This document shows, in pieces, positions 13,177-19,874 of a stretch of 64,000 nucleotides of DNA; position 1 is the first letter of the stretch; every line of letters begins with the position of its first letter. Origin of the DNA: an uncultured bacterium (GTDB lineage: Bacteria; Cyanobacteriota; Vampirovibrionia; Gastranaerophilales; Gastranaerophilaceae). The stretch covers positions 1-64,000 of the forward strand of contig CAIPUE010000017.1 in the NCBI GenBank assembly GCA_903868125.1, given 5' to 3'. The position numbers and the translations under genes are program-made. The notes beneath the pieces were generated by a model. It was not told the DNA's origin. It ran no database searches and worked only from the letters and a program-made list of their open reading frames with translations.

Positions 13177-13200
13177 GGAGGCTAAGCCTCCTTTTTTTTT
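13177..13200 (+). terminator. Terminator after sepF
   Basis: GGAGGC-TAA-GCCTCC followed by nine T residues, 56 bp after the sepF stop. This is a classic intrinsic terminator for the yggS-sepF operon. Confidence 0.9.
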
Positions 13201-13520
13201 ACAAAAACGCCAAATACATCAATCTGTTTTTCTTCAGTGAATAAGCAAATATTTCTAAAGTTTTTTTGCCTACTTTTTTTTGCAAAAACGCCAAATACAT
13301 CAATCTGTTTTTCTTTAGTGAATAAGCAAATATTTCTAAAGTTTTTTTGCCTACTTTTTTTGCAAAAACGCCAAATACATCAATCTGTTTTTCTTCAGTG
13401 AATAAGCAAATATTTCTAAAGTTTTTTTGCCTACTTTTTTTACAAAAACGCCAAATACATCAATCTGTTTTTCTTCAGTGAATAAGCAAATATTTCTAAA
13501 GTTTTTTTGCCTACTTTTTT
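13201..13520 (+). repeat. Four-copy 80/81-bp tandem array upstream of metK
   Basis: Units beginning CAAAAACGCCAAATACATC start at 13202, 13283, 13363 and 13443, giving periods of 81, 80 and 80. The copies are almost identical: copy 2 has TTTAG for TTCAG, and T-run length varies by one. Each ends in TTTTTTTGCCTACTTTTTTT. There are no distinct spacers, so it is not a CRISPR array. It has no coding potential. It fills most of the 512-bp gap between sepF and metK. Confidence 0.97.
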
Positions 13521-13535
13521 TACAAAAAAAGTAGG
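13510..13535 (+). terminator. Perfect CCTAC/GTAGG hairpin closing the array
   Basis: CCTACTTTTTTT (13510-13521) pairs with AAAAAAAGTAGG (13524-13535). It is a 12-bp stem with nearly no loop, so in RNA a few A-U pairs would open. It could end transcripts entering metK from upstream, or it may simply be the end of the repeat element. It carries the GTAGG end of the dispersed hairpin family. Confidence 0.5.
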
Positions 13536-15857: not shown

Positions 15858-16157
15858 TTAATCGCAACAATCATCACAAGTGTCAGGTTGGTCACAACAA
15901 GGACTTTGGATTGGAGCCGCTGGACATGGGCAAGATTCAGCGCATGGTGCAGGACAACATGGCGTAATTAACGGTGCAGGGCAACAAGGCTTTACGCATG
16001 GGCTTGGGCAACACGGAGCCACTATTGGGGCAGCAGGACAACAAGGCGCGGATTGATAGTGGTAAAATTGGGATTGACATGGGCAAGCTGCTAAGCTGGG
16101 TAATGCACCTAATGCCAAGACTAAGAAAGCTCCTAAAGCTATTAATTGTTTTTTCAT
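15858..16157 (-). CDS. Cys/Pro-rich exported small protein
   Basis: I do not recognise this 99-residue protein. After a clear signal peptide (MKKQLIALGAFLVLALGALP, cleavage near SLAA), the mature part of about 75 residues is dominated by Pro, Ala and Cys. The repeated unit is APCCPxP (about six PCC/CPC units), with an acidic tail DTCDDCCD. More than 20 Cys suggest disulfide packing or metal binding. The start was set at 16157 because AAAGGAG lies 8 bases before it; the frame's earlier ATG at 16184 overlaps that ribosome site. It is transcribed alone between the L,D-transpeptidase and a divergent gene. Confidence 0.8.
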   Translation of the reverse strand: MKKQLIALGAFLVLALGALPSLAACPCQSQFYHYQSAPCCPAAPIVAPCCPSPCVKPCCPAPLITPCCPAPCAESCPCPAAPIQSPCCDQPDTCDDCCD

Positions 16158-16515
16158 GATAAAGTTCTCCTTTTTAATTTTCAAAATGGCTGGAGGTAAT
16201 TTAACAATTTGTTACCTCAATGACTTTATCATTTTGCACCCATCAAAATAAAAAACGATATCCAAACAGATAGTCTTATCGTAAAAGCATGGTAGACATT
16301 TTGGCTAGACTTAAATGTTAGGTAGTAATATTTTGAAATGCTGCTGCTGCGATTAAAAATGGGTAATTTAAAAGAAAAGAGGTTAATCTTCTTCTCTTAA
16401 TTTTAATATATTGTTAAATTTATAGGCTAATATTTTTAGTAAGATGGACATATTAATTTCTTAATACACTATACTATAATCAAAGTGGTACATACGTAAT
16501 GGAGTGGCTAAATAA
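16158..16515. other. 358-bp divergent intergenic region
   Basis: This gap separates the Cys-rich gene (minus) from the oxoamine synthase (plus). I see no gene in it. A short hairpin AAGAGGTTAATCTTCTTCTCTT is near 16378-16400. A -10-like TATAAT is at 16475-16480 ahead of the plus-strand gene, with only a poor -35 match. Other signals are not apparent. Confidence 0.6.
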
Positions 16516-17772
16516 ATGCAGAAATCAAATTTTGACGAAATAAGTTTGAGGGACTTCTTTGATATAGACGGTTGTGATATAATGCAAAGAGCTAAAAAAT
16601 TTAGCGAGCATCTTAATCATGTAAAAGAAATAAAACATCATTACTATAAACGAGTATCAACAACAGGTTCATCACCTATTATGACTGTTTGTGACCGATA
16701 TTCCGGTCTAAAAAAAGAAATGATTTATTTGGCATCAAATGATTATCTTAATCTTACGAGGCACCCGCGTACAATAGCTGCAGGTGTGAAAGCACTTGAA
16801 AAATACGGTACGGGGGCGGGAAGTGTACCGTTATTAGGTGGAACTTTCGATATTCACATAGAATTGGAAAAAAAAATTGCCAAATTCAAAAGTTGTGACA
16901 ATGCAATTTTATATACATCAGGATATAATGCAAATTGTGGCTCTTTACTTGCATTATTGGGAGAAAAAGATATAGCAATTCTCGATAAACTGGTACATGC
17001 AAGCATTATTGATGGGTGTAAAAATACAAACGTAAAATTTTTCAAACACAATAACCTTAAATCGCTTGAACAAATTCTTGAAAGAAGCAAAAAACAATAT
17101 AGAACAAAGATTATTATTGTTGATGGCGTTTATTCTATGGATGGAGATATTTCTCCTCTTGATAAAATTGTTGAATTGGCAAAAATTTATGGCGCTTATG
17201 TGATGGTGGATGAAGCCCACGCAACAGGTGTTATAGGTAAAAATGGGAAAGGTTCTCTTGAACATTTTGGGCTGGAAGGTAAAGTAGACATTGTTTCAGG
17301 AACTTTTAGTAAGGGAATGGGTTGCGTTGGGGGGTTTGTTGCTGCCAATGAAGAGTTAATCGAACTTTTGTATTTTTATTCTCGCTCATATATGTTTTCG
17401 ACTGCACCAACACCACAAGTTGTAGGTTCTTTAATTGAGTCTCTCAACGTAATTGAATCAGAGCCCGAATTGCTTCGTAATTTATGGCAAAATATAAATT
17501 ATTTTAAGGAAAATTTATTGCGTCTTGGATTTAATATCGGAAATTCAGAAACGGCTATTTTCCCTATCATTATTGGTGATGATTACAAAACACAAGAAGC
17601 GTGCAAACTGCTTCATGAACGTGGTATTTATGTCAATCTTGTGTTGTATCCTGCAGTACAAATGAGAGCATCAAGACTTAGATTAAGCTTGATGTCTACT
17701 CATACAAAAGAGCACTTAGACAAGGTTCTTGAAGCATTGGAAGAAATAGGGAAAAAATTGGATTTAGTTTGA
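16516..17772 (+). CDS. PLP-dependent alpha-oxoamine synthase family protein
   Basis: A 418-residue fold-I PLP enzyme of the family that condenses an amino acid with an acyl-CoA (8-amino-7-oxononanoate synthase, glycine C-acetyltransferase, serine palmitoyltransferase). Visible sites: GTGAGSVPLLGGT (98-110), VDEAHATGVIG (231-241), and Schiff-base Lys266 in GTFSKGMGCVGG. An N-terminal extension of about 65 residues (SLRDFFDIDGCDIMQRAKKF) precedes the core. No biotin, threonine-degradation or sphingolipid gene is adjacent, so the substrate is open. GGAGTGG precedes the ATG. Calling it bioF or kbl would overreach. Confidence 0.85.
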   Translation: MQKSNFDEISLRDFFDIDGCDIMQRAKKFSEHLNHVKEIKHHYYKRVSTTGSSPIMTVCDRYSGLKKEMIYLASNDYLNLTRHPRTIAAGVKALEKYGTGAGSVPLLGGTFDIHIELEKKIAKFKSCDNAILYTSGYNANCGSLLALLGEKDIAILDKLVHASIIDGCKNTNVKFFKHNNLKSLEQILERSKKQYRTKIIIVDGVYSMDGDISPLDKIVELAKIYGAYVMVDEAHATGVIGKNGKGSLEHFGLEGKVDIVSGTFSKGMGCVGGFVAANEELIELLYFYSRSYMFSTAPTPQVVGSLIESLNVIESEPELLRNLWQNINYFKENLLRLGFNIGNSETAIFPIIIGDDYKTQEACKLLHERGIYVNLVLYPAVQMRASRLRLSLMSTHTKEHLDKVLEALEEIGKKLDLV

Positions 17773-17822
17773 GTTATAGCAATTTTTGGAGTTTTCTGAG
17801 ATGTTTGCATTAACACATGGGG

Positions 17823-17851
17823 TTGACAATTTTGTTATATTGTGCTAGACT
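17823..17851 (+). promoter_or_regulatory. Probable promoter of the ilvA leader
   Basis: TTGACA at 17823-17828 and TAGACT at 17846-17851 are separated by 17 bp. Transcription would begin near 17858, some 40 bases before the leader-peptide start. The -35 is perfect; the -10 is weak. Confidence 0.6.
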
Positions 17852-17895
17852 CTCGGTAACTTGTATATTATCAAATTTTAAAAGGATTTTAAATC

Positions 17896-17991
17896 TTGAC
17901 AAACTTATTTAATAACAGCATTATTATTAACATTATTAGCCTAATGATTATTTCAATTAGTAGGCGGTCTGTAGTGTATAATTTTATTTAG
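17896..17991 (+). CDS. Ile-rich leader peptide of the threonine dehydratase operon
   Basis: A 31-codon frame starts at TTG with AAAAGGA 9 bases upstream and ends in TAG. Nine of its 31 codons are isoleucine, all ATT, and most are clustered: ATT ATT ATT AAC ATT ATT, then ATG ATT ATT TCA ATT. It lies directly before an intrinsic terminator and the threonine dehydratase gene, the first committed step to isoleucine. This is the layout of a ribosome-mediated attenuator: scarce Ile-tRNA stalls the ribosome in the run and lets transcription continue. Caution: the same TTGACA could instead be a -35 element, in which case an ATG at 17944 would start a shorter peptide. Confidence 0.65.
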   Translation: MTNLFNNSIIINIISLMIISISRRSVVYNFI

Positions 17992-18012
17992 TTATTAATA
18001 ATTATAAAATTT

Positions 18013-18050
18013 AACCCGCAGGCCTTACAGAAAAAGGATGCGGGTTTTTA
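18013..18050 (+). terminator. Attenuator terminator before ilvA-type gene
   Basis: AACCCGCA (18013-18020) pairs with TGCGGGTT (18039-18046), with an inner CCTT/AAGG stem and a terminal T-run, just 28 bp before the gene's start. TCTGTA at 17968-17973, within the leader frame, can pair with TACAGA at 18026-18031 inside the terminator loop side and might contribute to an antiterminator. That pairing is only 6 bp, so the alternative fold is tentative. Confidence 0.8.
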
Positions 18051-18078
18051 AATGCAAAAAATAAAAAAGGAGCAATAC

Positions 18079-19191
18079 ATGCAATATAAAGTTTATAATA
18101 ATTCCCCTGAGGTTGTTACAGAAGAAAAATTATCTTCCGTTCGCAAATTTTCAAACCCGATAGCGTTTGAAATACCTCAGAATGTTTATCAGATTAATTT
18201 GGCTAAAAGAATTAATGAACTTTATGTTTCGACAATTGATGCAAGAAAAACATTACTAAACTATAAAGCAGATTTATCAACTGCAGTTGATTTTAAAAAC
18301 GACTGCCTCACACCATTGACAGAATCAAACTTATGCCCAATGCTTTTTTATAAACGAGAAGATTTAACATCAATTAAAGCTTACAAAGTGCGTGGTGCTT
18401 TTTATCAAATGAGCAAAATCCTAGAACAAAATAATTCACCTAAATTAAAATTTGTCGCGGCATCAACAGGAAATCATGCATTGGGAGTTTTAAAAACCGC
18501 TGAAATTTTGCGAACTCCTAATGTCACAATTTGTGTTTCGGAATGTACAACTGATTTTAAAAAACAAGAACTTAAAAAAAGAATTTTCAACTTGAAAGCC
18601 AAAGGTATAAACGCAGAATTGATTGTCAGCGGTCAAAATTTCGACCAGACAAATCAATTTGCCCAAAAAATCGCCGAAGCGGATAAATACAGTTTTTATA
18701 TAGACCCCTATAATACGCATAATGCCGTCGCAGGACAAGGGACCATAGGTCTTGAGTTGTTAACCCAACTGGAAAGCAAACAACTCAATAAATTAAAAGA
18801 ACTTACGGTTATTGTACCTATAGGTGGAGGCGGATTAATTTCAGGAATATCTTGTGCATTGAAATCAGGAATAAAACAATTTCCGTCGATGAAAAATCTT
18901 AAATTGAGAATTATTGGTGTAAGCCTTAGAGACTTAAATTCTGTCTATGGTGATGCGATTAAAGTCAAAACTGTAGGTAGTCATAATGACGAATATATTA
19001 ATTATTTTGTTGAAAAAATGGTTAAAATTGACGACATAGATATGGCAAAAGGAATTAATTTTGTTTATAATGATTTTGGGGTGAAAGTCGAAGGAGCTTC
19101 GGCGGGAACTTTAAAGCCGATTTTTGAGAATATAGTAACCCCTTCTGAAACTAACGCCGTAGTTTGCATACTTAGTGGCGGGAATATTTAA
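18079..19191 (+). CDS. ilvA: Threonine dehydratase without ACT domain
   Basis: The PLP enzyme turns threonine into 2-oxobutanoate and ammonia, the first step of isoleucine synthesis. The 370-residue protein has the PLP lysine at about 103 in KREDLTSIKAYKVRGA, the phosphate/substrate loop ASTGNHALG, and the glycine loop PIGGGGLISG. It ends at the catalytic-domain terminus LSGGN. It therefore lacks the C-terminal ACT-like domain through which isoleucine inhibits the long form. Control may rest on the leader instead. The frame's earlier ATG (18052) lies in front of the ribosome site AAAAAGGAG, so 18079 is the start. ridA follows after 21 bp. A catabolic role (tdcB) is possible, but the Ile leader argues for biosynthesis. 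Confidence 0.88.
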   Translation: MQYKVYNNSPEVVTEEKLSSVRKFSNPIAFEIPQNVYQINLAKRINELYVSTIDARKTLLNYKADLSTAVDFKNDCLTPLTESNLCPMLFYKREDLTSIKAYKVRGAFYQMSKILEQNNSPKLKFVAASTGNHALGVLKTAEILRTPNVTICVSECTTDFKKQELKKRIFNLKAKGINAELIVSGQNFDQTNQFAQKIAEADKYSFYIDPYNTHNAVAGQGTIGLELLTQLESKQLNKLKELTVIVPIGGGGLISGISCALKSGIKQFPSMKNLKLRIIGVSLRDLNSVYGDAIKVKTVGSHNDEYINYFVEKMVKIDDIDMAKGINFVYNDFGVKVEGASAGTLKPIFENIVTPSETNAVVCILSGGNI

Positions 19192-19212
19192 CAATTTAAA
19201 AGGAGAAAATTT

Positions 19213-19590
19213 ATGATAAAAAAAGTTTATACCCCCAAGGATTTCATAAGTGTCGGACCTTATTCGCCTGCGGTTGAGGTTGGCAATTTGGTTTATTTCT
19301 CAGGTCAGATTCCGCTTAATCCCAACACGGGCAAACTTGTTGAAGGTGATATTTCGGCACAAGCAGAACAATGTTTTAATAACTTATTGAATGTTTTATC
19401 TGCAGCAGATTTAACTACTGATAATGTTGTAAAATCTACAGTTTTTCTAACTAACATGAATGATTTTGCTCTTGTGAACGAAGTTTATTCTAAATTTTTC
19501 AATAGCCCATATCCGGCAAGAAGCGCTATTGGCGTTGCTTCTCTCCCGCTTGGGGCACAAATCGAAATTGAAGTCATTGCAGGCAAGTAA
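19213..19590 (+). CDS. ridA: Reactive enamine/imine deaminase RidA
   Basis: A 125-residue RidA/YjgF protein. It hydrolyses the enamine/imine intermediates released by PLP dehydratases such as threonine dehydratase, which otherwise damage other PLP enzymes. The family signature is intact: GPYSPAVEVGNLVYFSGQ near the N terminus, and YPARSAIGVASLPLGAQIEIE with the substrate-binding Arg at about 105. It is in the same operon as its natural partner, the dehydratase, with an AAAAGGAGA site before the ATG. Confidence 0.96.
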   Translation: MIKKVYTPKDFISVGPYSPAVEVGNLVYFSGQIPLNPNTGKLVEGDISAQAEQCFNNLLNVLSAADLTTDNVVKSTVFLTNMNDFALVNEVYSKFFNSPYPARSAIGVASLPLGAQIEIEVIAGK

Positions 19591-19622
19591 AGGCTAAATC
19601 GATGCTATACTATACACAAAAC

Positions 19623-19745
19623 AAAAAGCAGATTTTTTGTTGTCGGGCAGGAATGCCCGACCTACTTTAAATTTTCTCGTAGGGCTGGATTGCTATCCAG
19701 CCGTCTTGGATTTAAAATCTGCTTTTCATTTCAGGAGGAGTATAA
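19623..19745. repeat. Two GTAGG hairpin repeats, head to head
   Basis: A minus-strand copy (hairpin 19640-19665, GTCGGGC/GCCCGAC) faces a plus-strand copy (19679-19705, GGCTGGAT/ATCCAGCC). The second is followed by TCTTGGATTTAAAATCTGC. The same pair of modules, in a different arrangement and with a GGCGGGAT/ATCCCGCC stem, occurs at 28750-28825. This lies in the 575-bp gap between ridA and the Tad locus. Confidence 0.85.
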
Positions 19746-19874
19746 AACGCCCGACAGAATAAATTGAGACAAATTCATTAACTTATGTAAAAAATAACAA
19801 AATATAGGCAATTTTTTCTCAGAATTTTTTTTATTATATATGTGTGTAATTTTAATGTTTCTGAAAGGGGTGTT

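Follow-up and report, generated by a model that had tools for sequence, protein, structure and literature searches.

A predicted isoleucine attenuator upstream of a single-domain threonine-dehydratase-like gene and ridA in a non-photosynthetic genus of Cyanobacteriota

In the 64,000-nucleotide stretch of DNA analysed here (the window; contig CAIPUE010000017.1, Gastranaerophilaceae), an ilvA-ridA operon is very probably under the control of a transcription attenuator of the classical ribosome-mediated type, which senses the supply of isoleucyl-tRNA. The host family is non-photosynthetic, with genomes of about 2 Mb; other members of the Cyanobacteriota carry photosystem II reaction-centre genes. 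The device is of a known kind, occurs in a lineage without an earlier record of one and is tied to an unusual single-domain dehydratase, and we regard it as a well-supported prediction. The support is wholly computational and comes from two genomes whose leaders show no variation.

The region begins with a sigma-70-type promoter on the forward strand (17823-17851), a consensus match rather than proof, in which TTGACA (17823-17828) is separated by a 17-nt spacer from TAGACT (17846-17851), preceded by the TG of an extended -10. Transcription from it is predicted to start near 17858. A leader open reading frame follows on the same strand (17896-17991), with a TTG start, 31 codons and a TAG stop at 17989-17991. 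Its predicted product, (M)TNLFNNSIIINIISLMIISISRRSVVYNFI, is unchanged in a relative of the same genus. Nine bases 5' of the TTG, the sequence reads AAAAGGA (17880-17886), which includes a Shine-Dalgarno AGGA (17883-17886). Nine codons of the leader are ATT (codons 9, 10, 11, 13, 14, 18, 19, 21 and 31), and eight of these fall within the 13 codons from 9 to 21 (17920-17958), the candidate control codons. In genes of the window, 8.3% of codons specify isoleucine, which gives eight in 13 a binomial p of ~2e-6; the exclusive use of ATT, which accounts for 52% of isoleucine codons, has a p of 0.003. Dinucleotide shuffling of 17780-18078 (2000 times) and shuffling of all the window's intergenic DNA (9.2 kb, 40 times) never produced an ORF with eight isoleucines in 13 codons, and the leader is the sole ORF of this kind in that intergenic DNA. 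Shine-Dalgarno sequence, clustered ATT codons and an isoleucine-pathway gene 3' of them together make this a short ORF of the translatable type found in leader-peptide attenuators, its translation being predicted.

Between the leader and the structural gene lies an intrinsic terminator (18013-18049, forward strand; computed fold), in which 18013-18020 pairs with 18039-18046 and a U run occupies 18045-18049. The hairpin (18013-18046) has a computed energy of -16 kcal/mol. A consensus terminator scan with a loop limit of 8 did not report it, and its U tract is short, at only five; its fold and five-T tail are like those of terminators at the ends of other genes in the window. The dehydratase gene starts at an ATG at 18079, preceded by AAAAAGGAG, and another in-frame ATG is present at 18052. 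The original prediction had described a 31-codon leader in which nine codons are ATT, eight lying within 13 codons, followed by an intrinsic terminator and then a dehydratase gene without an ACT feedback domain. Every element of this leader was found again on re-reading 17400-19800, the order of the parts was confirmed in the sequence, and the missing domain is borne out by the profile matches described below.

The leader RNA can also fold in a way that excludes the terminator. GGUCUGU (17966-17972, codons 24-26, extendable by 17960-17963) is computed to pair with GCAGGCC (18018-18024), a pairing that takes up the inner portion of the 5' arm of the terminator; directly upstream of GGUCUGU, a computed hairpin (17939-17965, GCCUA-A-UGAUU / AAUUA-G-UAGGC) could act as a pause hairpin. 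At -11.5 kcal/mol the antiterminator pairing is stronger than in shuffled sequences, whose means range from -4.7 to -5.5 (p ~0.02-0.03), by itself a modest statistic, and comes close to the values obtained with the same measure for Escherichia coli ilvL (-12.0) and thrL (-13.7 kcal/mol). In a simple footprint model, a ribosome at codon 20 or earlier leaves 17966-17972 free and one at about codons 22-30 blocks it, so that seven of the eight clustered isoleucine codons fall where a stalled ribosome leaves the antiterminator strand available. At the leader stop codon the modelled block is incomplete, and steric exclusion or quick refolding must therefore be assumed there. In these computations antiterminator and terminator exclude each other, and the position of the ribosome decides whether the antiterminator can form.

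The equilibrium behaviour of the leader depends on where the transcript begins. With starts at 17855-17858, the terminator probability is 0.4-0.65 when the ribosome sits on the tested isoleucine codons and ~0.95 when it sits on later codons; the drop occurs on isoleucine codons only and lies beyond all 400 shuffles. With starts at 17862 or later, the terminator prevails in all ribosome states, as it likewise does at equilibrium in the E. coli control leaders, and the switch must then be kinetic. Since the equilibrium switch seen with a start at 17858 disappears with these later starts, the case for an attenuator does not rest on it.

Regulation could proceed as follows. Transcription would begin near 17858 and a ribosome would initiate at the TTG at 17896. 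Under a shortage of charged tRNA-Ile, the ribosome would stall in the ATT cluster (codons 9-19), allowing GGUCUGU to pair with GCAGGCC before the 3' arm of the terminator is made; no terminator would form, and dehydratase and RidA would be produced. When isoleucine is plentiful, the ribosome would proceed over codons 21-32 and cover 17966-17972, the hairpin at 18013-18049 would form and transcription would stop. The dehydratase would supply 2-oxobutyrate for isoleucine, and RidA would clear the reactive enamine/imine product.

The dehydratase (18079-19191, forward strand) is a protein of 370 aa with a single matched domain, PF00291 (122.6 bits, cut-off 35). The PLP lysine (K103) and the SGNHA and GGGGL glycine-rich/phosphate-loop motifs are kept, which places the protein in the dehydratase branch of the fold-type II PLP enzymes. 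All threonine ammonia-lyase models score below their cut-offs. The best, TIGR01127, which describes the biosynthetic enzyme with a C-terminal ACT domain, reaches 142.8 of 378.75 bits, and its alignment covers the catalytic part only (profile positions 17-286 of 380). The protein ends at SGGNI, about 80 residues short of relatives that run on into the ACT region, and lacks the C-terminal regulatory region of the TIGR01127 type. An N-terminal extension of ~50 residues (within 18079-18330) was modelled with low confidence, and ~17 residues of ordinary IlvA are absent near position 288. Identity to ordinary IlvA is ~31%. In the collections searched, no close homologue turned up beyond the genus: a scan of genome collections returned only the one relative of the genus, and tblastn against plasmids reached ~28% identity at best. 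Given this distance and isolation, the substrate is one that we infer.

The gene content of the genome agrees with a role in isoleucine synthesis. Directly downstream lies ridA (19213-19590, forward strand), a Rid family gene that scores above the TIGR00004 cut-off; RidA hydrolyses enamine/imine intermediates of the threonine dehydratase reaction. The genome also encodes IlvB, IlvN, IlvC and IlvD, its only matches to citramalate synthase (CimA) fall far below cut-off, and a search for dehydratases returned a single match, with no other recognisable threonine dehydratase. The gene at 18079-19191 therefore looks like the sole source of 2-oxobutyrate and is apparently the genome's only gene for an isoleucine-committing enzyme. 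No leaders were found 5' of ilvB, ilvC, ilvD or leuA in either genome of the genus; terminators 5' of ilvB in some other genomes of the family were considered and set aside, being the end of metK in at least four. Among 60 family genomes, 11 carry citramalate synthase, and the IlvA carriers listed include none of these 11, a pattern expected if the two routes to 2-oxobutyrate were mutually exclusive in the family, although the two samples are not identical.

Both genus genomes compared carry the dehydratase gene, the second on CAISJE010000003, from a metagenome-assembled genome. The block from promoter to ridA (17809-19607; positions 153-1951 of L004 in the relative) is 96.8% identical between them, close to ilvB (96.6%), ilvD (96.5%) and ilvC (97.8%) elsewhere in the same pair of genomes. 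Its flanks are unrelated, and together with this ordinary divergence this implies either that the block moved as a unit or that the flanks were rearranged. Other features of the window include palindromic repeats of the CGGGCAGGAATGCCCG and GGCTGGATTGCTATCCAGCC type 3' of ridA (19630-19715). A similar GGATGGGATTGCTATCC unit lies 5' of ilvD in the relative (L081), and the repeats look like dispersed REP-like elements. Tandem-like repeats of ~80 bases, readable as repeated peptides, lie directly 5' of an S-adenosylmethionine synthetase gene (13199-13530), and the reverse strand (15858-16184) encodes a small protein rich in cysteine and proline, with CCPAP repeats and what looks like a signal sequence.

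Within the block, the untranslated and leader region is more conserved than the genes: 17852-18078 differs at one of 227 positions, against 50 of 1491 coding bases (Fisher p 0.010), and the leader ORF, antiterminator and terminator hold no mismatch at all. The original prediction had named retention of the leader's isoleucine codons in related genomes as a check; in the one relative these codons are kept, but the leader is identical and so offers neither codon variation nor covariation. Among 383 genomes of the family, leader DNA was found only in the two of this genus, and the remaining matches were short, AT-rich and of chance type. Upstream of 25 ilvA loci in other genera of the family, we found no convincing Ile/Val/Leu leader and no terminator. 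Four of these ilvA genes were checked with the profile models and are of the TIGR01127 type with an ACT region, so that within the family an ACT-type IlvA without a leader stands against an ACT-less dehydratase with one.

Three other readings of the region were weighed. Transcription might instead begin inside the leader, at a second pair of -35/-10-like boxes (17896-17924; TTGACA at 17896, CATTAT at 17919-17924) with a start near 17931, the ORF remaining untranslated and the hairpin serving as a constitutive partial terminator or 5' stabiliser. By consensus this pair equals the upstream promoter (10 of 12 matches each), and it is unchanged in the relative, where the upstream -35 is also unchanged and two changes fall in the region of the upstream -10 (the -10 itself reads TAAACT). 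However, an internal start would leave unexplained a Shine-Dalgarno-led ORF with eight isoleucines in 13 codons, the presence inside that ORF of a strand complementary to the terminator and the conservation of 17852-17895; the TTGACA at 17896 is merely the TTG start codon followed by ACA. We consider this reading very unlikely, and TTGACA at 17823, rather than the copy at 17896, is on sequence grounds the probable -35 box. The presence of a terminator with an alternative fold would also suit a metabolite-binding riboswitch or a T-box, with the isoleucine-rich ORF incidental. The leader region matches no Rfam family at gathering score, a relaxed Rfam search gave chance-level matches only and no T-box, and an incidental ORF with such an isoleucine run is itself improbable, so that we judge this explanation extremely improbable.

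It is also very unlikely, in our estimate, that the attenuator is genuine and the enzyme something other than a biosynthetic threonine dehydratase, such as a serine dehydratase or a racemase-like protein. The sub-cut-off scores and the low identity to IlvA point that way. Yet the best PDB matches to a structure model whose confidence is modest (mean pLDDT 65) are catalytic domains of threonine deaminases, and the catalytic motifs are kept; with another substrate the genome would be left without a source of 2-oxobutyrate despite its ilvB/N/C/D, and both the isoleucine codons and RidA fit threonine dehydratase. An isoleucine attenuator, as the original prediction had proposed, is the reading favoured by the anatomy of the leader, the geometry of the antiterminator, the gene content and conservation in one relative.

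A close functional parallel is E. coli ilvL, 5' of ilvXGMEDA, which shares a short leader ORF with branched-chain codons, a GC-rich terminator, an antiterminator of similar strength (-12.0 against -11.5 kcal/mol) and a threonine dehydratase among the controlled genes. It differs in mixing Ile, Val and Leu codons where the present leader is nearly Ile-only, in driving a long operon that includes an ACT-type IlvA instead of ilvA-ridA alone and in having a U tract of eight rather than five, and the two are unrelated in sequence. The ilvB leaders of Actinobacteria (Corynebacterium, Mycobacterium and Streptomyces; PMC1262725) likewise combine short ORFs and runs of Ile/Val/Leu codons near a terminator with branched-chain genes, but they belong to ilvB operons of another phylum and use mixed codons. 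Histidine leader peptides of bacilli (PMC2965389), too, are attenuators found beyond the Proteobacteria and Actinobacteria and may have arisen independently; they concern another amino acid, other genes and another phylum. A weak local match to the Rfam Trp_leader (RF00513; 16.2 bits, E 0.98) spans the antiterminator and terminator and stays far below the gathering score of 41; the control codons differ, and the leader is not a member of that family.

Leader-peptide attenuation requires ribosome and RNA polymerase to be tightly coupled. A survey of 2010 found leader-peptide attenuators shown only in Proteobacteria and Actinobacteria and then added the Firmicutes (PMC2965389), and according to a paper of 2016 reliable data on attenuation were lacking for cyanobacteria (PMC4833913), in agreement with the original prediction, which knew of no such leader in this lineage. 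We found no later report of cyanobacterial attenuation in the literature searched, which covers few subscription journals. On balance it is an even call whether the Cyanobacteriota have here their first ribosome-mediated attenuator of an amino-acid operon, arisen independently in one small non-photosynthetic genus along with a threonine dehydratase without a feedback domain, with RNA-level control standing in for allostery of the isoleucine branch.

Attenuation and allosteric inhibition work at different levels and on different timescales. Judging from the sequences, attenuation may here have replaced allosteric inhibition, which would fit the contrast within the family, a single evolutionary instance. 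That contrast, ACT-type enzymes without a leader and an ACT-less enzyme with one, makes the substitution testable. If true, a working isoleucine attenuator in non-photosynthetic Cyanobacteriota would widen the known range of these devices, suggest that they have originated repeatedly and imply that transcription and translation are coupled in these organisms.
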